A DNA stretch of 23,286 nt from positions 1-23,286 of IMG/VR virus record IMGVR_UViG_3300031251_000108, one strand, 5' to 3'. Under the pieces are notes generated by a model, which was not told the origin of the DNA, made no database searches, and worked only from the letters and a program-made list of their open reading frames with translations. Source of the DNA: a virus. Position 1 is the first letter of the stretch; the number at the start of each line of letters is the position of its first letter. Of this stretch, positions 1,905-15,521 are shown piece after piece. Position numbers and translations under genes: made by a program.

Positions 1905-2528
1905 GTGGTCTCCTGCGATGAGGCAATTAAGAAGTTCGACAAATACGTCTGGGCCGTGGCTCACAAGTTTGCTAGGAACCTGCGAGGATACGATGTTTGT
2001 GATCTGCACCAGGAAGGGTTGATCAAGTTGTATGAGGTTTACACCTCTGCGGCGAACAGCGGCAAACCTGATGCGGAACTGGACAAGATTTTCAAGACCT
2101 CGTTGTCCCACAGGTTTATCGACATCCAGCGTGAGCAGTTCCTTCAGGACCACTACTTGGTTACCATGGACTTGGAAGAAGCAACCTTGTGGTATGGTGA
2201 GGATGCTTTTGCGGAACTTAACTTGCGATATTGCCAAGAGTATCTGGCCCACTTCGTGAGTTCCGATGCAGCCTTGCTCCTGGATTTGCTCGTGGAGCCC
2301 TCTACAGAGTTGCTGTTGGAGTTCCAACTTCAGACCATGCGGAGAGAGCATATCAAGCAGCAAGGTTTCAAGACCCTGATCACCAACAAGATTCCCCACC
2401 GTCTCGCTGGAAAGACGCTAGGGTTTGGCCTTAGCAAGACCAAGAACCTGATTCGTGAACTTCAACACGCCTTTATGGAGCATATGTGCTCAGCCCACAG
2501 TTACAAGCTGAACAAAGCCATGTGCTGA
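1905..2528 (+). CDS. Putative phage RNA polymerase sigma-like factor
   Basis: The product has 207 residues. The N-terminal half resembles sigma70 region 2: an AVAHKFARNLRGYDVCDLHQ helix, a GLIKLYEVY segment, then FKTSLSHRFIDIQRE, the usual helix pair that binds the -10 element and the beta-prime clamp. The C-terminal third (KIPHRLAGKTLGFGLSKTKN) looks like a degenerate region 4 helix-turn-helix. The start is GTG at 1905, supported by GAGG at 1896-1899. The ATG at 1894 is in another frame that terminates early, and an in-frame TGA at 1866 limits extension. Such proteins redirect host RNA polymerase to phage promoters. It lies downstream of a structured leader and overlaps the next gene by 43 bases. 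The sigma assignment rests on motif resemblance only. A diverged unrelated helical DNA-binding protein is the alternative. Confidence 0.62.
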   Translation: MVSCDEAIKKFDKYVWAVAHKFARNLRGYDVCDLHQEGLIKLYEVYTSAANSGKPDAELDKIFKTSLSHRFIDIQREQFLQDHYLVTMDLEEATLWYGEDAFAELNLRYCQEYLAHFVSSDAALLLDLLVEPSTELLLEFQLQTMRREHIKQQGFKTLITNKIPHRLAGKTLGFGLSKTKNLIRELQHAFMEHMCSAHSYKLNKAMC

Positions 2529-3547
2529 AGCTCATTGTCTTTGAGCTTGGTGGGTTAGCCCACGATCACATGAGTCTGCAGGAATTGGACAGCATCATCG
2601 ATAGCATCCTGTCCAAGGGGATTCCCACCACCCTTTCCCCAGCCTTAACCCGATGGATTCGTGCGCACTGCAAGAAACCTGAGTTCAAAATTCAACAGAT
2701 TCTGAGGACAACCATGAGCGACAAGCATTCGTTAGTGCCTGACTGTTTCGCCCGATTCCATGACGGAACCGCAGTGGAATGCAAGGTCTGCTTGGATCGA
2801 GTGGAGTGCAAAGCAAAGTGCACCCACAACGGATCTGCTGAAGTCATGGTTCCAGCAGAGCGAGTTCACGTGGTCTATCCCCTTGGCAAACGTGCTGATG
2901 TGGATGATCTGCGGGAAGTGCTTTCTCAAAAAACAGGCCAGATCGCAAGAACCTTGTCCCAGGGGAACAAGGTTGTTCTGGTAGTTTCTCACAACCAACT
3001 CCAAGTGCTTGCCCTGGAAAGCACCCCGTCCCAGGAGGACACCATCATGAGCAAGAAGCCCGACACCAAGGCCAAGAAGACCGTGGAAGAGGATGACGAA
3101 GAGGACGAAGTCATCACCAAGACCCCCGCGAAGGCTGCGGCCAAGGACCTGAAGCCAGTCAAGAAGGCCGCCAAGCCCGTCGTCGAAGAGGACGATGAGG
3201 AAGACGAAGACCTGGACCTGGAGGAAGTGGACGAAGAGGGGGATGAGGACGAAGACGAAGAAGAGGAAGCCCCCAAGAAGTCCAAGAAGACCACCAAGGC
3301 CGAGCCCGAGCCCAAGGCCAAGAAGGAGAAGAAGGCTGCTCCGGCCCTCAACACCCTCCAGGCCGAGTTCGTGGACAAGCTCAAGACCACCTACAAGGAG
3401 AACGAGGCGCTGTTCAAGGCGGCCAAGAAGGCCGGTGTCAAGTGGGACCGCAAGGACGATCCGCGCATCGACCGCATGCTCTGCGTCATGTCCATGAAGA
3501 AGTTCCTGGGCGAGCAGGGCAAGTCGGCGGCCAAGGCCAAGAAGTAG
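2486..3547 (+). CDS. Unknown Cys-rich protein with PD-(D/E)XK-like pattern and long K/E-rich tail
   Basis: The ORF encodes 353 residues. The GTG at 2486 is favoured because GGAG (2477-2480) lies 5 bases before it; GTG 2522 and ATG 2570 are weaker alternatives. Residues 1-187 form one ordinary-looking domain. It contains V-P85-D86, then G-T-A-V-E98-C-K100, the spacing of a PD-(D/E)XK nuclease core. The same stretch has C99-x2-C102-x5-C108-x3-C112, which could instead bind zinc. Residues 188-353 are low complexity: alternating Lys/Ala and Asp/Glu blocks, then a compact C-terminal segment. A strong ribosome-binding site lies just before Met188, so the second half may be made separately. The coding changes abruptly there to GC-rich, AAG/GCC-biased codons, as if two genes had been joined by loss of a stop. 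The nuclease idea is weak. Confidence 0.6.
   Translation: MLSPQLQAEQSHVLKLIVFELGGLAHDHMSLQELDSIIDSILSKGIPTTLSPALTRWIRAHCKKPEFKIQQILRTTMSDKHSLVPDCFARFHDGTAVECKVCLDRVECKAKCTHNGSAEVMVPAERVHVVYPLGKRADVDDLREVLSQKTGQIARTLSQGNKVVLVVSHNQLQVLALESTPSQEDTIMSKKPDTKAKKTVEEDDEEDEVITKTPAKAAAKDLKPVKKAAKPVVEEDDEEDEDLDLEEVDEEGDEDEDEEEEAPKKSKKTTKAEPEPKAKKEKKAAPALNTLQAEFVDKLKTTYKENEALFKAAKKAGVKWDRKDDPRIDRMLCVMSMKKFLGEQGKSAAKAKK
3033..3038 (+). promoter_or_regulatory. Internal ribosome-binding site AGGAGG
   Basis: A perfect AGGAGG lies 8 bases before an in-frame ATG at 3047, inside the longer ORF that begins at 2486. Its strength and spacing are as good as those of true gene starts in this window. It is the main evidence for an internal translation start. 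Confidence 0.7.
3047..3547 (+). CDS. Nested in-frame low-complexity acidic/basic protein
   Basis: This start would yield 166 residues from the 3' part of the 2486-3547 ORF. The chain begins MSKKPDTKAKK and continues with Glu/Asp runs separated by Lys/Ala/Pro linkers (about residues 11-95). It ends in a folded-looking segment of about 60 residues (ALNTLQAEFVDKLKTTYKEN onward) with a Lys/Ala-rich end. The acidic and basic blocks, including AKPVVEEDDEEDED, closely resemble the tail of the gp32-like protein encoded at 13861. A terminator-like hairpin follows the stop. The function is unknown; a histone-like or SSB-tail-mimicking role is conceivable but not shown. Either this is the only product of the region and the upstream domain is read through, or both long and short forms are made. 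Confidence 0.6.
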   Translation: MSKKPDTKAKKTVEEDDEEDEVITKTPAKAAAKDLKPVKKAAKPVVEEDDEEDEDLDLEEVDEEGDEDEDEEEEAPKKSKKTTKAEPEPKAKKEKKAAPALNTLQAEFVDKLKTTYKENEALFKAAKKAGVKWDRKDDPRIDRMLCVMSMKKFLGEQGKSAAKAKK

Positions 3548-3866: not shown

Positions 3867-3878
3867 TTGGAGTCTGAT

Positions 3879-5819
3879 GTGTGCGGGATTGTAGGATGTA
3901 GGTTGTTGAACAAAACTCATCAGCATGAGGCGTTGAATTTTGTTGAACAACTTATGCTTCAGAGTCAGATTCGTGGGATGCACGCCACAGGAGTATCCTG
4001 GTTACGTGGGCCTGAATACACAGACCGCTGGAGACTACAGGTCAGGAAGTCCCCTGTGCCCGCTAGTGAGTTCCTGAAGTCTAGGGAGTGGGAAGATATG
4101 CGCAGGGACAGACCCATGTCCCTCATCGCGCATACCCGCTACAGCACGAGTGGAGACTGGGAAACCAACGCCAATAATCAGCCTATCGCGGTTGGAAGAT
4201 TGGCCATCGTTCATAATGGTCTTGTGTCCATGGCCACCCGTGAAGAGTATGAGCCCCTCTACAACGTGTCCTGCAAGACTGATAATGACTCGGAGATCAT
4301 CCTTGAGGAGATTGAAAATGCCATCGTGGTCATGGAGGGATCAGGCATCACCGATGAGGGATCTGGCGTTATTCGATCAGCGATTGCTGAAGGACTTGAC
4401 AGGATTCACCGGGTTGACCCCCCAATCTTTGCCTGTGGATTCCTGGATGGAGATGGAAACGTCTATGCCATCAGGGACCACATTCGACCGCTATGGTTTG
4501 TGTTCATCAAAGCCTGGGGATTTATTGGATTTGCTTCCACTCGTGACATTATCCAGAGAGCTATCAAGAAGTCAGGTATCACCGAGGATCTTGGAGTTGC
4601 TATCTGGGAAGCAAAGCCATATACTGTCTACACCTTGGACAAGCACATTAACCGGGATGCTATTGAGCTCCCTTTTTCATACCCCAAGGAATTTAGGTTC
4701 CAGCGGCCTGACATCATTTATCATCAATGGTTGGACAACAGAAAGCAGACCAACCGTGGAAAAGACCTGCAGATGGACAATGGCAAGACCAGGGATTACC
4801 GCAAGGACATGCGAACCTGCTTCAAGCACTACTCTGTGGCTGCCATCACGTCCTGGGAAATTGACGTTGCATACCCCATGCTCAATTACCTTTTTCAAAG
4901 ATTTGAGTTCAGCAAGTCTCAGGAATATTGGATTTGTTGGCTCTATGGTGTTTTCTATCAACCTGGGACCGTATTCTATGTGCTCCAGGAGTTTCCAGAA
5001 TTTGAAAAGGTGGATGTAGGCAGACTTGAACGGTGGCACGCTGCAAACTGGCAGAAACTCCGGTATAATACAGACCGTAAATGGGAGAAGGGGCATTTCG
5101 TGGAGATGTTCCTGTCTTACAAGGACATGATTGGTTCTCAGACTCCTAATGCTCAGGAAGAGTTTTACAGCAAACTTCTGAAGAGCAAAGACCCAGTCAA
5201 GAACTTTCACAAGGTATTTGATAAACTCAAGACTCTCACTCGATTTGGAAGATACGCAACCTATATCATGACTGAAGCCCTTGCAAGGTGCATGGGCATG
5301 CCAATACAGGCTGATACCGTTTTCTTGAAAGATGCCGCATCTCCGCGTGCAGGCTTATGTTACGCCCTAAACAGGCCCGATTGGGCAAAAGCAAAGCTCA
5401 CTCAGGAGGAGTGGACAGAACTAGAAGAGGGTCTGGAGGCTCTCATGAAAGAGATCAAGGATGAATATCCTGATGTGCCCATGGATTATTGGTTCATGGA
5501 ATCCTGCTTGTGCTCCTGGAAGGGCTATTGGAGACCAACCAAGGGCAGGTATTTGGGATACTATCTTTCCAGAGGCGCCGATGAAATCCTGCAAATGCAA
5601 GAGACCGATATCACAAGTGGCGTGGATTGGATGGTGCTTTGGCAATTCCGTAAAGAGTGCCTGATGTGGGAATTGCTTGGAGAATATCAGAAACCTCCGC
5701 AACTGTGTATTCAGAAAAGCATGGAACATGTAATGCGTGATACTGGTCACATGATTGGCCTTGCACCGTTTACCAAGAGAGGGATTCTCAATGGCACGCA
5801 GATCTATCGAAAGAGATGA
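3879..5819 (+). CDS. Class II glutamine amidotransferase fused to a predicted amino-acid:DNA transferase (aGPT-PPlase) domain
   Basis: The GTG at 3879 is preferred because GGAG (3869-3872) precedes it and it makes Cys the second residue, as the Ntn-hydrolase fold requires after Met removal; an upstream TTG at 3861 would bury it. The protein has 646 residues. Residues 2 to about 250 are a GATase-II domain: C2-GIVG, THTRYST-like HTRYSTSGD with R87, H112-N113-G114, and the TDNDSE motif at about 134-139. All expected catalytic and glutamine-binding positions are present. The remaining roughly 350 residues lack synthetase or phosphoribosyltransferase motifs. They resemble the alpha-helical amino-acid:DNA transferase / alpha-glutamyl-putrescinyl-thymine pyrophosphorylase group (WICWLYGVFYQPGTVFYVLQ, LERWHAANWQKLRYNTDRKW, FGRYATYIMTEAL). 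The 3' end overlaps the kinase gene by 29 bases. The GATase call is firm; the second domain rests on remembered family pattern. The predicted role is attaching an amine or amino acid to activated hydroxymethyl-dU in DNA. Confidence 0.8.
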   Translation: MCGIVGCRLLNKTHQHEALNFVEQLMLQSQIRGMHATGVSWLRGPEYTDRWRLQVRKSPVPASEFLKSREWEDMRRDRPMSLIAHTRYSTSGDWETNANNQPIAVGRLAIVHNGLVSMATREEYEPLYNVSCKTDNDSEIILEEIENAIVVMEGSGITDEGSGVIRSAIAEGLDRIHRVDPPIFACGFLDGDGNVYAIRDHIRPLWFVFIKAWGFIGFASTRDIIQRAIKKSGITEDLGVAIWEAKPYTVYTLDKHINRDAIELPFSYPKEFRFQRPDIIYHQWLDNRKQTNRGKDLQMDNGKTRDYRKDMRTCFKHYSVAAITSWEIDVAYPMLNYLFQRFEFSKSQEYWICWLYGVFYQPGTVFYVLQEFPEFEKVDVGRLERWHAANWQKLRYNTDRKWEKGHFVEMFLSYKDMIGSQTPNAQEEFYSKLLKSKDPVKNFHKVFDKLKTLTRFGRYATYIMTEALARCMGMPIQADTVFLKDAASPRAGLCYALNRPDWAKAKLTQEEWTELEEGLEALMKEIKDEYPDVPMDYWFMESCLCSWKGYWRPTKGRYLGYYLSRGADEILQMQETDITSGVDWMVLWQFRKECLMWELLGEYQKPPQLCIQKSMEHVMRDTGHMIGLAPFTKRGILNGTQIYRKR

Positions 5820-6492
5820 GGAACTTTGGATCAGCAGCTACGATGGGATTCCCGTCTGGAGACTTTCCACGCTAAAAGCTGCGAAAGGCCCCCGAAAGCC
5901 TCTTTACGCAATCAATCTTAAAGGCGCAAATGGCACAGGCAAGTCCACCATTCCGATGAGGATGATTCAGCATGACAAGAAGGCTGTCTTACTTACGCTC
6001 ACCCAGTTGGATAAGAAGCCTGTTGCTACGTTTCTACCCCAATATGGAGTGGTCCTCATCGGTCTTTATCTCAAGGATACTGCGTGTGGTGGTTGTGACT
6101 CATTGGGAGACACTCAAGTTGTCAAACAGATCCTTAAAGCGCTGTGGAAGAAGGATGTCCACATTCTCTTTGAGGGGGTCATCGTGGGGGATATTTGCAG
6201 CACTTTTTACGAGATCATGAAAGGTTTCAGAGAAGTCCATTCAAGGCAAGTAAGTTTCTGTTTTATGGGGACTCCTCTCAAAGAGGCACTCCGTCGCATT
6301 CAGATTCGCAATGGAGGCAAAGAGATAAACACTGCTCTCGTGGCGCAGAAGTATCAGAACAGCATAAGGCAATTGAAGTTCTACCTGGAACAAGGCGATG
6401 TGGATTGTAAAGTTCTGAAGACAAGTGGCACCATGGAAGACGTGTTCAAGCGGTTCTGTGGGCTTTACCCGGATCTTGGACCTGTTTTTTAG
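5791..6492 (+). CDS. P-loop nucleotide kinase, predicted 5-hydroxymethyl-dU DNA kinase
   Basis: The product has 233 residues. Walker A is GANGTGKST at residues 45-53. The segment DVHILFEGVIVGDI carries a likely Walker B-like acidic residue in the position used by deoxynucleoside and hmdU kinases. An Arg-rich LKEALRRIQIRNGGKEI stretch looks like a lid. ATG 5791 is chosen because it has a purine-rich site (GAGAGGGA) upstream; in-frame TTG 5755 lies deeper in the preceding gene. The family phosphorylates the 5-hydroxymethyl group of hmdU after it is in DNA, the activating step for thymidine hypermodification. The assignment to that family rather than a general nucleotide kinase rests largely on the neighbours: the fused transferase before it and the aGPT-PPlase-type helical gene after it. 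Confidence 0.75.
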   Translation: MARRSIERDEELWISSYDGIPVWRLSTLKAAKGPRKPLYAINLKGANGTGKSTIPMRMIQHDKKAVLLTLTQLDKKPVATFLPQYGVVLIGLYLKDTACGGCDSLGDTQVVKQILKALWKKDVHILFEGVIVGDICSTFYEIMKGFREVHSRQVSFCFMGTPLKEALRRIQIRNGGKEINTALVAQKYQNSIRQLKFYLEQGDVDCKVLKTSGTMEDVFKRFCGLYPDLGPVF

Positions 6493-6501
6493 GAGTGTAT
6501 T

Positions 6502-7479
6502 ATGAGTGCGACTTTGGACGCAATGGTCACCCTGCAGGATTCTCTCCTGGAAAAGAAGTTGGGTATCAATCAGGAAAATCTGGACAGGTTCTGGCAGTTC
6601 ATCTATGATCGCCAGGAGATCTGGCACAAACGCTTCATCATGGGCATGAGGGCTCCATGGAGTGACAATCCCATTTTCAACGAATACAAGTTCACGAATG
6701 TCTACCGTGAGCTGGACCGGGGCACCATCTACCTGCTGGACAACATCTGTGAGAAGATGGAACCTGTAGACCAGGTGTGGAACATCATCGTGTATCGCAT
6801 GTTCAACCGTGTCAGCACCTATGACCACCTGGGTTTCAGGTCGTTTGGGCGCTGGGCCACGGACAAGGGATTCCGCAAGGCTTTCACCATCTTGCGTGAG
6901 TGGGCTGACGATGGCAACTCACTCTACACGGATGCACATATGACATGTGCATACGAACATTTCCCTGGGAAAGACAAATTGGAACGCTTCGAGTATATTT
7001 TCCATGGTGTCATCATGGGCATGGAAGTCTTGATGCGAATCATTAACAAGGCAAAAAGCCTTGAAACGATTCACAAGGCTCTGACTGCATTTCCAGGTAT
7101 TGGGCCTTTCCTTGCATATGAGATGGCAGTTGATATCTCCTATTGTGAATGGAATAATCTTGGAGAGGACGAGTGGGTCAACGCTGGCCCAGGGTGCCAG
7201 AGAGGACTTGCTGCTATATTCCCAGGTATCAAACCCAATGATTGTGCTTGGATGATAAAGGTTCTCAGGCAAGCACAGGAAAGGGAATTTGCGAGGCTTA
7301 AGCTCCCTTTTGAGGCTATTGCTTACGATGGTCGTTGGCTCACCCTGAGAAATATAGAACACTGTTGCTGTGAGGTATTTAAGTACCTCAAGGCTCTGAA
7401 TGGAACTGGGCGCCCCAGAAACAAATTTACTGTGCACGCAAAACCAGGTCAAGCAGACTTTGAACGCCTGAAGGGGTGA
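6502..7479 (+). CDS. HMUDK helical-domain / aGPT-PPlase-family DNA modification protein
   Basis: The product has 325 residues. The N-terminal part carries a pattern I recognise from alpha-glutamyl/putrescinyl-thymine pyrophosphorylase proteins, now often called the 5-hmdU DNA kinase helical domain: FWQFIYDRQEIWHKR, APWSDNPIFNEYKFTN, then VYRELDRGT at about 67-75. A helix-hairpin-helix-like FPGIGPFLAYE lies at about 197-207, consistent with the proposed relation to HhH DNA glycosylases and DNA binding. AGGAG at 6492-6496 supports ATG 6502. In some phages this helical domain is joined to the P-loop kinase; here the two are adjacent separate genes 9 bases apart, so they may form a complex. The exact reaction is not established from sequence: kinase partner, pyrophosphorylase or transferase are all possible. 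Confidence 0.75.
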   Translation: MSATLDAMVTLQDSLLEKKLGINQENLDRFWQFIYDRQEIWHKRFIMGMRAPWSDNPIFNEYKFTNVYRELDRGTIYLLDNICEKMEPVDQVWNIIVYRMFNRVSTYDHLGFRSFGRWATDKGFRKAFTILREWADDGNSLYTDAHMTCAYEHFPGKDKLERFEYIFHGVIMGMEVLMRIINKAKSLETIHKALTAFPGIGPFLAYEMAVDISYCEWNNLGEDEWVNAGPGCQRGLAAIFPGIKPNDCAWMIKVLRQAQEREFARLKLPFEAIAYDGRWLTLRNIEHCCCEVFKYLKALNGTGRPRNKFTVHAKPGQADFERLKG

Positions 7480-7482
7480 CTT

Positions 7483-7977
7483 GTGTCCATTGGTGTCTAT
7501 TGCATCACAAATATGGTGGACGGGAGGGCTTATATTGGCTCTTCCATACACGTGGAAAAGCGATGGAGTGAACACCAGTCAGAGCTGAGACGGAACGTGC
7601 ATCACAGTGTTTACCTCCAGAGGGCATGGAACAAGTATGGCAAGGATGCCTTTCAGTTTCGAGTGCTTATGGAGTGTTCCAAGAAGGACATGCTACGGTT
7701 GGAACAACTTTTCATGATCATTTTCCAGAGTGCAGATTGCAATCATGGCTACAATATGTATCCCATTGCTGGATCTCCTGGAGGCACCAAGGCCACTCCT
7801 GAAGTGAAGGCACAGCTGTCCCAGATAGTAAGGACCAGGTTACAAGACCGACCTGAACTTGTGCAGCAGTTAAGACTAAACGCTTTGAATCAGAAACCAT
7901 GCTCGGACCAAAAACGACAGAAGTGTATAGCAGCAAAACTCTTGTATTGGGCCAACAAGAAAAGTCTGGAAAAATAA
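7483..7977 (+). CDS. GIY-YIG homing endonuclease
   Basis: The product has 164 residues. The catalytic GIY-YIG domain occupies about residues 1-93: G4-V-Y6, Y17-I-G19, catalytic R27, metal-binding E74 and N91 (HGYNMYP). Residues 100-150 (ATPEVKAQLSQIVRTRL and what follows) resemble a NUMOD-type DNA-binding repeat found in free-standing phage endonucleases. GTG 7483 follows a GGGG-containing site and lies 4 bases after the preceding stop. This enzyme would cleave alleles lacking it and promote its own spread. It sits at the boundary between the modification genes and the structured gap. No group I intron core is recognisable beside it, so it appears free-standing. It is probably not part of the base-modification pathway. 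Confidence 0.88.
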   Translation: MSIGVYCITNMVDGRAYIGSSIHVEKRWSEHQSELRRNVHHSVYLQRAWNKYGKDAFQFRVLMECSKKDMLRLEQLFMIIFQSADCNHGYNMYPIAGSPGGTKATPEVKAQLSQIVRTRLQDRPELVQQLRLNALNQKPCSDQKRQKCIAAKLLYWANKKSLEK

Positions 7978-8406: not shown

Positions 8407-9570
8407 ATGAAAAAAGGTCGTAATCTGTTTTGTATTTACCCAGACTTGTTGGAGATGGTTCAACGAGAAGGCCACTACGCAGCACCCCGAGGACAGTCAG
8501 TAATTGAGATGGAGCATCCTGTAGGTTGGAGTTTGGAAAAGCCCCAGGAGTGGGCACTTTTTATTCCAGGGCGCAAACTCAATCCATTCTTTGCCTTGGC
8601 TGAAGTAGTCTGGATGTGGTCAGGCAAGGGTGGTGCTGATTTCATCAAGTTCTACAACAAGAGTATCACCAATTTCCTGGATGCTGGCATCCCTTACTTC
8701 CATGGGTCTTACGGAAGGCGGGTGAGACATGCTGGTTACAACGAATCCCCATTCAGGGAGATCCCCCACAACCGCACTGTGGGCATCCAGTCTAGCGAAG
8801 TGGAGATTGACCAACTGCAGTATGTGATCTCCAAGATTTTGCAGGATCATGACACTCGTCAGGCTGTGGTGAGTCTCTGGGACCCCGTGAAAGACAACCT
8901 GGTGCAGTCCAAGGACCACCCATGTAATAATCTATTGTATTTCTGGGTGCGCAAGGGCAGGTTGAACATGACTGTGGTGCGCCGGTCAAATGACCTGATC
9001 TGGGGTGTGCCCTACAACATGATCCAGATGTCTCATTTGCAAGCCCTTATGGCTGGTTCCCTTCAGGTGGAGGTGGGTGACTACCACGTGACGGCCAATA
9101 ACCTGCACTATTACAAGAACCTGTATCCTGAGACTCTTGATACTGTGGAAGGCTGGGTTAGCAAAGGTGCAGACCTGGACAAACTGTCAGACACGTTCTA
9201 TGGCAAAGGCTGGGACATGCGCTGGGCTCTCCAGGAGTTTGACAACTTCGTGAGCAAGTATTGGGACCCATTTGAGAAGCAGTCCAGGAATTTCTTGACC
9301 AATCAGATGCTCACTATTTACGAGAATGCCAAATCCAACGATCATGCTGCCAGAACAGTGTCAGCCTTCTACAACACCTGTATCATGAATATGGATCAGG
9401 CATTCTCAGAATACGAAGTGCCTGAATACTGGTGTAATCTGTTTCGTATGCTCCTGATTTATCACTGCCGGAAGGCAAGGGCGCTGGACCTGGCTGATGC
9501 TTTGCTCTCTCAGATGCCACGTGCCATGCAGTGGTTGGCTAACGATTTTCTCAAGAAGGAGAGTGTGTGA
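8407..9570 (+). CDS. Thymidylate synthase-family enzyme, candidate dUMP hydroxymethylase
   Basis: The product has 387 residues. It carries TS hallmarks: E66 in AEVVWMWSG, Y102-G103 in HGSYGRR, R151 in DTRQAVVSLWDP, catalytic C173 in DHPCNNLLYFW, RRSNDLIWGVPYN at 192-204, and a late NNLHYYKN replacing the usual HxY. N204 matches the TS Asn that selects dUMP; dCMP hydroxymethylases carry Asp there. The residue after the catalytic Cys is Asn instead of the usual His. The chain is longer than the roughly 264 residues of E. coli TS, with an extra helical C-terminus from about residue 300. The enzyme adds a one-carbon unit from methylene-tetrahydrofolate to dUMP. Given the hypermodification genes nearby, 5-hydroxymethyl-dUMP is the likelier product, but ordinary dTMP synthesis cannot be excluded. 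Confidence 0.82.
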   Translation: MKKGRNLFCIYPDLLEMVQREGHYAAPRGQSVIEMEHPVGWSLEKPQEWALFIPGRKLNPFFALAEVVWMWSGKGGADFIKFYNKSITNFLDAGIPYFHGSYGRRVRHAGYNESPFREIPHNRTVGIQSSEVEIDQLQYVISKILQDHDTRQAVVSLWDPVKDNLVQSKDHPCNNLLYFWVRKGRLNMTVVRRSNDLIWGVPYNMIQMSHLQALMAGSLQVEVGDYHVTANNLHYYKNLYPETLDTVEGWVSKGADLDKLSDTFYGKGWDMRWALQEFDNFVSKYWDPFEKQSRNFLTNQMLTIYENAKSNDHAARTVSAFYNTCIMNMDQAFSEYEVPEYWCNLFRMLLIYHCRKARALDLADALLSQMPRAMQWLANDFLKKESV

Positions 9571-10115
9571 TGGATGGCAAAGAAATGTGCAGACTTCGCA
9601 GGTCTGTCCAGTTTGCGGTGCTGGGAGGCCAAACCAAACGCTTCCATACCTGTAACACCATCGGTGAAAACTCCGTGGCAGCCCATAGCTTTCAGGTGGC
9701 GTGGCTCTGTCATGTATTGATGCAGGGGGCTTCCTACAACCTCATTATGGCTGCTATTGCACACGACATGGCTGAACAGACCACTGGGGACTTGCCTGGT
9801 CACATCAAGTTGCAACTCCCTAGTGGCCAGGAACTTGAGGACATGGAGCACAGAGCTTTAGTCCAGCGTGATTGGAATTTTGTTCTAAACGCCGATGAGC
9901 AGTTTATCCTGAAACTGGCAGATTATCTATCAGGAATGCTATTCTGCTGCCAGGAACGCATGATGGGTAACAAGTCCTTGAATGGATGCTTTAGCTGGTG
10001 GAATGAACGTGTCATGGATATGGTCTATGGCCTCCAGTCAGTATTTTCTCCCAACGAAGTGATACGAATCGTGGTTAATGAAGTTCAACAACACTGGCTG
10101 GAGGCTATCAGATGA
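9570..10115 (+). CDS. HD-domain 5'-deoxynucleotidase (YfbR-like)
   Basis: The product has 181 residues. The HD metal site is visible: H39 in VAAHSFQVAW, H65-D66 in AIAHDMAEQ, then E69 and GD74 in TTGDLPGHIK, and a later Asp in KLADYLSG. This order matches the YfbR/5'-deoxynucleotidase group, which removes phosphate from dNMPs. ATG 9570 overlaps the TS-like stop (TGATG) and has AGGAG at 9557-9561; a GTG at 9567 directly before it is less likely. Translational coupling to the TS-like gene suggests a joint role in the pyrimidine pool, for example destroying dTMP so that the modified nucleotide is used. That specificity is inference. Confidence 0.82.
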   Translation: MDGKEMCRLRRSVQFAVLGGQTKRFHTCNTIGENSVAAHSFQVAWLCHVLMQGASYNLIMAAIAHDMAEQTTGDLPGHIKLQLPSGQELEDMEHRALVQRDWNFVLNADEQFILKLADYLSGMLFCCQERMMGNKSLNGCFSWWNERVMDMVYGLQSVFSPNEVIRIVVNEVQQHWLEAIR

Positions 10116-10558
10116 GTAATCCAAATGAATACCAGGTAGGTGGCAAGCACTACCAGACCCAATACCAGCACTGGGACTTCGTGCACGACTGCCTGGAAGG
10201 CCGATACTTGGAGGGGTGCATTACCAAGTATATCTCCCGCTGGCGCAAGAAAAATGGGCTGCAGGACCTGTTGAAGTCCAAGCACTACGCTGAGAAACTG
10301 CTCTCCCGTATTCAGGTCAAGGATTGGAATTATGTGGTGCCACTCTGCATCATGCATACTAAATCCTTTCCGGCCAATCTTATCCGGTTCTGCACGGACA
10401 ACGGCTTGACTGCTCTGGAGGTGGAGATCATGGGATTGATTTCCAACTGGCGTGGCGCCGGGGATGTGGAACACGCCATATTCCTTCTGAATCAGCTCAT
10501 CCTGCCTGAGCAGGAGATGGCCGATGAGCTGGCTCAGATGCGTCAAGAGAATCCGTAA
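10112..10558 (+). CDS. DUF3310 family protein
   Basis: The product has 148 residues. The N-terminus has the DUF3310 pattern: YQVGGKHYQ, WDFVHDCLEGRYLEGC, TKYISRWRKKNGLQDLLKS, then HYAEKLL. The family is common in phage genomes and is sometimes named a nucleotide kinase, but its activity is not established. The C-terminal 70 residues look like a separate small helical segment that I do not recognise. The start overlaps the HD gene's stop (ATGA) and the stop overlaps the polymerase start (TAATG). This places it in the nucleotide/replication operon. Confidence 0.8.
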   Translation: MSNPNEYQVGGKHYQTQYQHWDFVHDCLEGRYLEGCITKYISRWRKKNGLQDLLKSKHYAEKLLSRIQVKDWNYVVPLCIMHTKSFPANLIRFCTDNGLTALEVEIMGLISNWRGAGDVEHAIFLLNQLILPEQEMADELAQMRQENP

Positions 10559-13860: not shown

Positions 13861-14997
13861 ATGGCAGTGAAAGAGAAGGTCCAGGCCAAGGCAGCCAAGA
13901 AGCACGAGCCTGACTACAAGAAGGCCCTGGAGAAGCTCAACGAGCAGAGCAAGCGGGGTGGTGACCGCAACTACATCGAACTGGAGCAGGGCAAGAATAC
14001 GGTTCGCGTCCTCCCTGGCCATCCCGACATGGAGGGCTTCTATGAGGAGATCTATTACCACAACAAGCAGGTTGGCAAGAAGGCCCGCACCACGGTGATC
14101 TGCCTCAACCATGGCAACCCCGATGGAGAGGACTGCCCCATCTGTGCAGAACTGGAGGAACTCCGTGCTTCCAAGGACAAGGATGACCGCAAGGCGTATG
14201 GTCTCCTGCGTCCCAAGGCCCGGTTCTTCATGAACGCTGTCAAACGTCCTGAGGAAGAGTGCAAGATCCTGGCCTGTGGCATCTCCATCATGAAGGAAAT
14301 CCTGGGCTTTATCACGGATGAAGATTACGGTGACATCCTGGATCCCCAGGAAGGCACTGACCTGGTTATCACAAAGACCGGGGAGATGCTGGACACGGAA
14401 TACAGTGTCAAGGCACGGCGCAATCCTTCCCCGGTGTTTGAGGATGAGGATGCTGTCAATGCCCTGATCGGCACCACCGCCAAGAATACGAAACTCACCA
14501 ACCTCACCGAGATGAAGACCCAGTTCGAGGGTGAACCCAAGAAGGTCATGCTGATCTGGGAAGAGGGCTGGGATGCCCTCAAGGACATGGAAGAGGATGA
14601 TGAGGACGAAAAGCCCAAGAAGGGCAAGAAGGGTGTGAAGTCCAAGTCCAAGCCTGAACCTGAAGAGGATGATGAGGAGGATGAGGAGGAAGAGGTCCCG
14701 AAGGCCAAGGCCAAGAAGAAGGCCAAACCTGAGCCGGAAGAAGATGAGGACGAAGAGGAAGAAGAGGAGCCCAAACCCAAGGCCAAGAAGAAAGCCAAGC
14801 CTGTGGTGGAAGAGGACGAAGACGAAGATGAGGAGGAAGAGGAAGAGGAGCCCAAGCCCAAGAAGAAGTCCAAGCCCGAACCGGAACCCGTCAAAGCCAA
14901 GGCCAAGAAGAAGCCCGTGGAAGACGACGATGACGCGGAAGACCTGGATGACCTGGACGCGGTCCTCAACAAGCACAAAGCAAAGGGGAAGAAATAA
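13861..14997 (+). CDS. gp32-like single-stranded DNA-binding protein with long acidic/basic tail
   Basis: The product has 378 residues. The basic N-terminus is followed by the core: ELEQGKNTVRVLPGHP, then a zinc site of C81-x2-H84-x7-C92-x2-C95, and KARFFMNAV, as in T4 gp32-type SSBs. From about residue 243 the chain is low complexity, with Asp/Glu runs alternating with Lys/Ala/Pro blocks (PKAKKKAKP, PKPKKKSKP). Acidic tails of SSBs recruit replication partners; this one is far longer than usual. ATG 13861 is chosen for AAGGAG at 13849-13854; an upstream ATG at 13834 lies within the preceding hairpin. It coats single strands during replication and recombination. Codon use is GC-rich, suggesting high expression. 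Confidence 0.82.
   Translation: MAVKEKVQAKAAKKHEPDYKKALEKLNEQSKRGGDRNYIELEQGKNTVRVLPGHPDMEGFYEEIYYHNKQVGKKARTTVICLNHGNPDGEDCPICAELEELRASKDKDDRKAYGLLRPKARFFMNAVKRPEEECKILACGISIMKEILGFITDEDYGDILDPQEGTDLVITKTGEMLDTEYSVKARRNPSPVFEDEDAVNALIGTTAKNTKLTNLTEMKTQFEGEPKKVMLIWEEGWDALKDMEEDDEDEKPKKGKKGVKSKSKPEPEEDDEEDEEEEVPKAKAKKKAKPEPEEDEDEEEEEEPKPKAKKKAKPVVEEDEDEDEEEEEEEPKPKKKSKPEPEPVKAKAKKKPVEDDDDAEDLDDLDAVLNKHKAKGKK
14590..14990 (+). repeat. Low-complexity repeat region in the SSB tail
   Basis: Imperfect units of Glu/Asp runs plus Lys/Ala/Pro blocks repeat about four times, with near-repeats such as CCCAAGCCCAAGAAGAAG. The same style is found at about 3060-3320. Such DNA is prone to slippage. It also creates long artefactual open frames on the opposite strand. 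Confidence 0.7.
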
Positions 14998-14999
14998 CC

Positions 15000-15521
15000 A
15001 TGACACAGCAGCTTGAATACGATGCACTCGTTCAATTCAAGTTGCTCCATACGGGAAGTGCCCTGCCAGTTCGGGGCACTTCCCATTCTGGGGCATTTGA
15101 TATTGTATCTCCAACCAGTGGCCAGGTTCGCTCTGGCAAAACCCTTCTGTTTGGGCTTGGAATAGCCCATCAGATCCACGATGACAACCTGTTTCTGCCA
15201 GTCCAGTCCCACGCAGCGGATGGCACCTGGAAGCAGATCAACGTGCCTTTCCGGCTCCAGGGCATCCTGATTCCCCGCTCTGGCCTGGCAGCCAAGAAGA
15301 AGGTCAGGATGTTCTTTGCCCCCTGCCTGATCGACCACGATTACAGGGGTGAGATCCATGCCATGATCGAGAACATGGGCGACAAGGTGCTGCGTTGGGA
15401 AGCGGGTGACAGGATCTGCCAGATAGCCTACCTTCCAGCCTACATGGGGCCCATCATGGAAGTATTCAACCTCTCAGAAACTGACCGTGGTTCTGGCGGT
15501 TTCGGAAGCACAGGAGCATGA
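15000..15521 (+). CDS. dut: dUTP diphosphatase (dUTPase)
   Basis: The product has 173 residues, the usual size for trimeric dUTPases. All five motifs are present: SGAFDI (D34), PRSGLAAK at 92-99, LIDHDYRGEI at 110-119, GDRI at 136-139 and the mobile C-terminal RGSGGFGSTG at 163-172. A short insertion between motifs 1 and 2 (about residues 60-82) is unusual. The enzyme hydrolyses dUTP to dUMP. It keeps uracil out of DNA and supplies dUMP to the TS-like enzyme, a natural fit with hydroxymethyl-dUMP production. AGGGGAAG lies upstream of ATG 15000. Confidence 0.92.
   Translation: MTQQLEYDALVQFKLLHTGSALPVRGTSHSGAFDIVSPTSGQVRSGKTLLFGLGIAHQIHDDNLFLPVQSHAADGTWKQINVPFRLQGILIPRSGLAAKKKVRMFFAPCLIDHDYRGEIHAMIENMGDKVLRWEAGDRICQIAYLPAYMGPIMEVFNLSETDRGSGGFGSTGA

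Follow-up and report, generated by a model that had tools for sequence, protein, structure and literature searches.

A glutamine amidotransferase joined to a DNA base-modifying domain

What reaction is served by a single protein of an uncultivated phage that unites a glutamine amidotransferase (GATase) domain, of the ammonia-releasing kind, with a domain from a family whose members join small amines to bases in DNA? The protein is encoded in a 23,286-base IMG/VR virus record, probably a fragment, the whole of which is referred to here as the window. The identities of its two domains are demonstrated below; the chemistry that would link them is inferred. The original prediction, made from the sequence alone, placed the gene at 3879-5819 with a GTG start, and both the coordinates and the start held: the open reading frame (ORF) on the plus strand is intact and its first residues are Met-Cys.

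3869-3872, plus strand: Shine-Dalgarno sequence GGAG, 6 nt ahead of the GTG start (sequence)
3879-5819, plus strand: GATase-ADDT fusion gene, 646 codons, mature protein beginning at Cys1 (sequence; Pfam; full-length relative L016, 52% identity)
3882-4658, plus strand: class II (Ntn) glutamine amidotransferase domain, about residues 1-259 (Pfam GATase_6; PurF/GlmS structural match; invariant catalytic residues)
4815-5678, plus strand: ADDT/PUGT-like base-modifying domain, about residues 312-599 (Pfam ADDT; PDB 8z2m structural match; alignments)

The N-terminal domain is a class II GATase of the PurF/GlmS fold. Pfam GATase_6 matches residues 80-145 above its curated cut-off (E 1.4e-9), the N-terminal part of a structure model of the fusion matches PurF and GlmS with Z scores of 23-25, and the best NCBIfam match of this region is purF (E 5.8e-9, below the NCBIfam cut-off). 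Removal of Met exposes Cys1, as befits the N-terminal catalytic Cys of class II GATases, and the substrate and oxyanion residues of this class (Arg, N-G and the Asp of the NDSE motif) are all in place: R86 (mature numbering; R87 with Met), H-N-G at 111-113 and N-D-S-E at 135-138 within TDNDSE. The claim of a complete class II GATase, which rested on the N-terminal Cys, R87, H-N-G and TDNDSE, was upheld for each of these elements. Cys1, R86, N112, G113 and D136 are invariant in an alignment of 51 GATases (51/51); the count for Cys1 includes 50 locus sequences that were selected for having Cys directly after a start codon; two further sequences carry the Cys internally. Glutaminase activity is inferred from these features.

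The C-terminal domain belongs, beyond chance, to the amino-acid:DNA transferase (ADDT/PUGT) family, so that its predicted kinship to aGPT-PPlase/amino-acid:DNA transferases was borne out by both Pfam and structure comparison, its transfer activity being inferred. Pfam ADDT (PF18724) matches residues 346-547 (E 7.7e-22; 78.6 bits against a cut-off of 26.2), and aGPT-Pplase3 also matches the protein (E 4e-8). The single-chain fusion model, built from a 68-sequence alignment of the window and locus proteins, reached a pLDDT of 84.3 and a pTM of 0.86, and its C-terminal part superimposes on PDB 8z2m, the PUGT of phage PaMx11, with a Z score of 18.1 over 252 residues (rmsd 3.4). Structure prediction of the C-terminal part alone, which the original prediction had proposed as a check, gave a Z score of 17.4 to 8z2m (rmsd 3.3, 252 residues aligned), whereas the first unrelated entry in the ranking, an 8-oxoguanine glycosylase, scored only 8.8; the modelled domain thus has the PUGT fold. 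This likeness emerged only by structure comparison: the ADDT domain shares only 13% sequence identity with PaMx11 PUGT, searches of PDB sequences by phmmer and profile found no match, and a sequence-profile comparison of the ADDT domain with PaMx11 gp46 was not significant. Residues conserved in alignments of the domain are W350, G456-R457 and E540-x3-C544-x2-K547, the last of which constitutes the E-x3-C-x2-K core of the ADDT/PUGT family. Because amino-acid-using ADDTs have this same core, the sequence does not show that an amino-acid pocket has been lost. Among ADDTs linked to a GATase, a segment like GRYLGYYLDRQAEEI (residues 556-569; window 5547-5588) is conserved, whereas the ViI-, Zemanar- and PUGT-type ADDTs have a different sequence there; the segment might form an interface with the GATase.

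The fusion gene lies among predicted 5-hmdU hypermodification genes

The genes 3′ of the fusion encode, in order, a kinase P-loop subunit, its helical partner, a GIY-YIG endonuclease, a thymidylate synthase (TS)-family protein, a YfbR-like HD protein, a DUF3310 protein and a family A DNA polymerase.

5791-6492, plus strand: 5-hmdU DNA kinase P-loop subunit HMUD1 (PF18748, E 2.8e-22)
6502-7479, plus strand: 5-hmdU DNA kinase helical subunit, HMUDK_hel (PF18723, E 3.5e-65)
8407-9570, plus strand: thymidylate-synthase-family protein, predicted dUMP hydroxymethylase (PF00303, E 1.1e-24)
9567-10115, plus strand: YfbR-like HD 5′-deoxynucleotidase (PF12917, E 1.9e-12; PaMx11 gp52, E 2e-13)
10112-10558, plus strand: DUF3310 protein, collinear with PaMx11 gp53 (Pfam; E 9e-20 to gp53)

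The HMUD1 ORF is open from 5755, and its likely ATG at 5791 overlaps the fusion gene; the TS-family ORF is open from 8314, and its start at 8407 was set by alignment with the L016 protein. The window contains a split 5-hmdU DNA kinase together with a TS-family protein whose Asn (in PYN) aligns with an Asp of T4 dCMP hydroxymethylase. Asn at this position of TS-family enzymes points to dUMP as the substrate. That the protein hydroxymethylates rather than methylates dUMP is inferred from the adjoining 5-hmdU kinase and from PaMx11. The GIY-YIG gene occupies 7483-7977, after the gene for the kinase helical subunit and before that for the TS-family protein; at the same place L016 has a gap of ~400 bases.

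The same flanking genes occur in the same order in PaMx11, in which gp46-gp55 encode PUGT, an FAD oxidoreductase, an acetyltransferase, the kinase, its helical subunit, TS, HD and DUF3310 proteins, gp54 and a DNA polymerase. BLASTP matches between the two support this synteny (kinase, E 8e-9; helical subunit, 1e-20; TS, 3e-40; HD, 2e-13; DUF3310, 9e-20; polymerase, 3e-14), and Pfam agrees. PUGT (gp46, a 5-PmdU glycinyltransferase; PDB 8z2m/8z2n) shares both its fold and its Pfam family with the C-terminal domain of the fusion. However, where PaMx11 has the trio of glycinyltransferase gp46, FAD enzyme gp47 and acetyltransferase gp48, the window has the single GATase-ADDT fusion, and a profile search found no GATase in PaMx11. 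The window also differs in having the extra GIY-YIG gene and no gp54 counterpart.

Linkage of GATase and ADDT recurs in environmental viruses

Neither single-protein scans of viral_contigs (IMG/VR) nor one scan of genome_contigs found a relative, and no INPHARED isolate phage matches the fusion over 80% of its length. ADDT alignments used as queries against viral_contigs did find relatives, at 12 loci and then as 228 confirmed relatives, the best 80 of which underlie the locus counts. A search for the fusion architecture, also proposed with the original prediction, thereby yielded a second fusion in a syntenic sister virus (L016, 52% identity) and many unfused GATase/ADDT pairs. These two are the only true fusions known; elsewhere the genes are separate, sharing one base in L109 and adjacent in L022, while other loci have a GNAT gene, or amidoligase and GNAT genes, and sometimes a further GIY-YIG/ParB-like gene between them. 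GATase is fused to or precedes ADDT in 42 of the 43 viral loci where the sequence ahead of the ADDT match is longer than 4.6 kb (the L016 fusion included), the sole exception being L025, which lacks a GATase. This fraction overstates the number of independent cases, since some loci are near-identical or were drawn twice from one contig; 29 GATases remain at <90% identity.

The usual setting is an operon of the order TET/JBP - GATase - (amidoligase) - (GNAT) - ADDT - P-loop kinase, conserved in L017, L022-L024, L032, L043, L069, L086 and others. Among 12 records, TET/JBP genes occur in ten, and a TS-family gene only in that of L016. A cytosine target for the TET operons was considered and is disfavoured by the lack of any C5-methyltransferase in the same 12 records; thymine as the target fits the data, with the provisos that the records may be fragments and that TET activity is inferred.

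Because PF13522 missed the L023 GATase, the distribution of GATases was assessed with a profile built from six GATases, which detects the domain in six GATase-ADDT records and in the LUZ24 positive control. It found none in ten isolate phages, the majority belonging to the amino-acid type and most bearing ADDT (phiW-14, ViI, PaMx11, MP1412, Zemanar, MO526, Cr30, Cygsa01, SH-Ab 15599 and Vibrio 1.244.A); the alpha-glutamyl phage SP10 was not among them. A DAO-family FAD enzyme, which adjoins ADDT in MO526, and a PALP-family PLP enzyme, which is present in MP1412, were each found in none of the nine GATase-ADDT records searched. Two records, L023 and L069, contain radical-SAM genes, at a distance from the operon. 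Tailoring enzymes of the window virus could lie outside this 23 kb fragment.

A proposed one-step route to 5-aminomethyl-dU

Based on the domain identities, intact catalytic residues, recurrent linkage and synteny, all of which are shown, we propose that the fusion is likely a glutamine-dependent DNA-base aminase; the ammonia transfer, phosphate leaving group, product identity and direct channelling are inferred, without biochemical or mass-spectrometric data. The TS-family enzyme would make hm-dUMP, which would be incorporated into DNA as 5-hmdU, and the two-subunit kinase would phosphorylate 5-hmdU in DNA to 5-phosphomethyl-dU. The GATase domain would hydrolyse glutamine at Cys1 and hand the ammonia on to the ADDT domain. 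There ammonia, and not an amino acid, would displace the phosphate, so that 5-aminomethyl-dU (5-NmdU) is formed in a single step. PaMx11 reportedly attaches glycine that is later cleaved by the FAD enzyme to leave 5-NmdU, a route that one-step amination would replace. In PurF (glutamine PRPP amidotransferase), ammonia displaces a pyrophosphate leaving group. Ammonia replacing phosphate is the most economical proposal because the GATase residues are intact, the partner has the PUGT fold and PurF provides the chemistry; direct channelling is inferred from the fusion of the domains and the way class II GATases generally behave.

The original prediction had left open whether ammonia (giving 5-aminomethyl-dU) or glutamate (giving an alpha-glutamyl-type base) is transferred onto activated hydroxymethyl-dU. 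The ammonia branch is favoured by the recurrence of GATase-ADDT linkage, the intact catalytic residues, the synteny with PaMx11 and the absence of GATase from the ten isolate phages, the chemistry itself being inferred. The glutamate branch is not favoured, and as the activated base, 5-phosphomethyl-dU is more likely than a pyrophosphate, judging from the title of PDB 8z2m.

In the related viruses, TET/JBP dioxygenase would probably make the hydroxymethyl base directly in DNA, and amidoligase and/or GNAT would probably decorate the new amine by amidation or acetylation; the presence of these genes in TET operons is consistent with the predicted tailoring of a primary amine. A bolder reading, slightly more likely to fail than to hold, is that a GATase-ADDT enzyme or pair allows a widespread group of environmental viruses to aminate thymine-derived bases directly, the ammonia coming from glutamine and 5-aminomethyl-dU serving as a primary-amine handle that in many of them is decorated by amidoligase (amino-acyl or peptidyl amides) and GNAT (acetyl).

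Relation to known systems

Neither 5-aminomethyluracil as a natural phage base (PMC11550810) nor the fusion of GATases to phage DNA-modification enzymes is new. In Gat-QueC of phage 9g, a GATase domain is fused to QueC (PMC6884629), which acts on 7-deazaguanine, whereas the ADDT partner in the window would act on a thymine derivative. CmoY-type ligases that include a glutaminase domain are predicted to place glutamine-derived ammonia on a DNA base substituent (PMC12783734), but by ATP-dependent amidation of 5-carboxymethylcytosine, without ADDT, kinase or 5-hmdU. The ADDT of Salmonella phage ViI (Vi01_199) is of the same Pfam family and lies near a member of the 5-hmdU kinase family, but no GATase was found in ViI by profile search; its reported base is 5-(2-aminoethoxy)methyl-dU (PMC6449724). 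PurF, which the GATase domain matches best in structure (Z 25), has an unrelated acceptor domain, and its acceptor is PRPP rather than the base in DNA proposed for the fusion.

We found no description of GATase-ADDT in the literature searched, although the central papers of the field fell outside it and prior notice is not excluded. Our proposal, if correct, adds to the enzymatic routes that lead to 5-aminomethyl-dU a second and simpler one, and implies a class of enzymes that modify DNA with nitrogen taken from glutamine. For phages, having a primary amine in their DNA would mean a chemically versatile handle; for biotechnology, it would offer a labelling tool. The bolder reading, if true, would add to DNA hypermodification a branch that the literature searched does not describe.

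Alternative explanations

One alternative is that ADDT attaches glutamate or glutamine, with the GATase supplying glutamate locally or deamidating the attached glutamine, to yield an alpha-glutamyl-type thymine. In its favour, amino acids are the substrates of the ADDT members characterised to date (PUGT is titled a glycinyltransferase in PDB 8z2m), the fusion has the core motif of such members, and alpha-glutaminylthymine has been reported as a natural base in phages (PMC11550810). However, free glutamate is abundant in cells, so that no glutaminase should be needed; the GATase carries the class II residues for free glutamine; and GATase is absent from the ten isolate phages, most of them ADDT-bearing (SP10 not included). 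We consider this explanation unlikely.

It is likewise improbable that the GATase mainly serves another enzyme, such as an amidoligase or nucleotide-pool enzyme, and is linked to ADDT as a matter of operon convenience. In LUZ24, tf and Shrooms a GATase does adjoin an amidoligase in the absence of ADDT, and most TET operons contain an amidoligase; yet two viruses have GATase fused directly to ADDT, and no amidoligase was found in the window or in the L016 (80.5 kb) or L023 (146.6 kb) records, so the GATase is not merely an amidoligase partner.

That the GATase is an EgtC-like gamma-glutamyl amidase, stripping a glutamyl protecting group from an ADDT-attached amine on DNA, is very unlikely: the structural matches do include EgtC (Z 20.3), which is also a weak NCBIfam match (E 0.015), but PurF and GlmS match better, and Amidoligase_2, a potential maker of the gamma-glutamyl amide and the only ligase family concerned here, was not found in the window or L016.

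With ammonia transfer by the fusion as the preferred reading, two further observations concern other genes. ORFs in L109 (5652-9217 and 15589-20238) resemble intein- or homing-type insertions in radical-SAM-like and DnaE-like genes. In the window, two phage proteins end in long acidic/lysine-rich low-complexity repeats (14581-14996 and 2486-3547), the repeats having been computed for 14400-15000.
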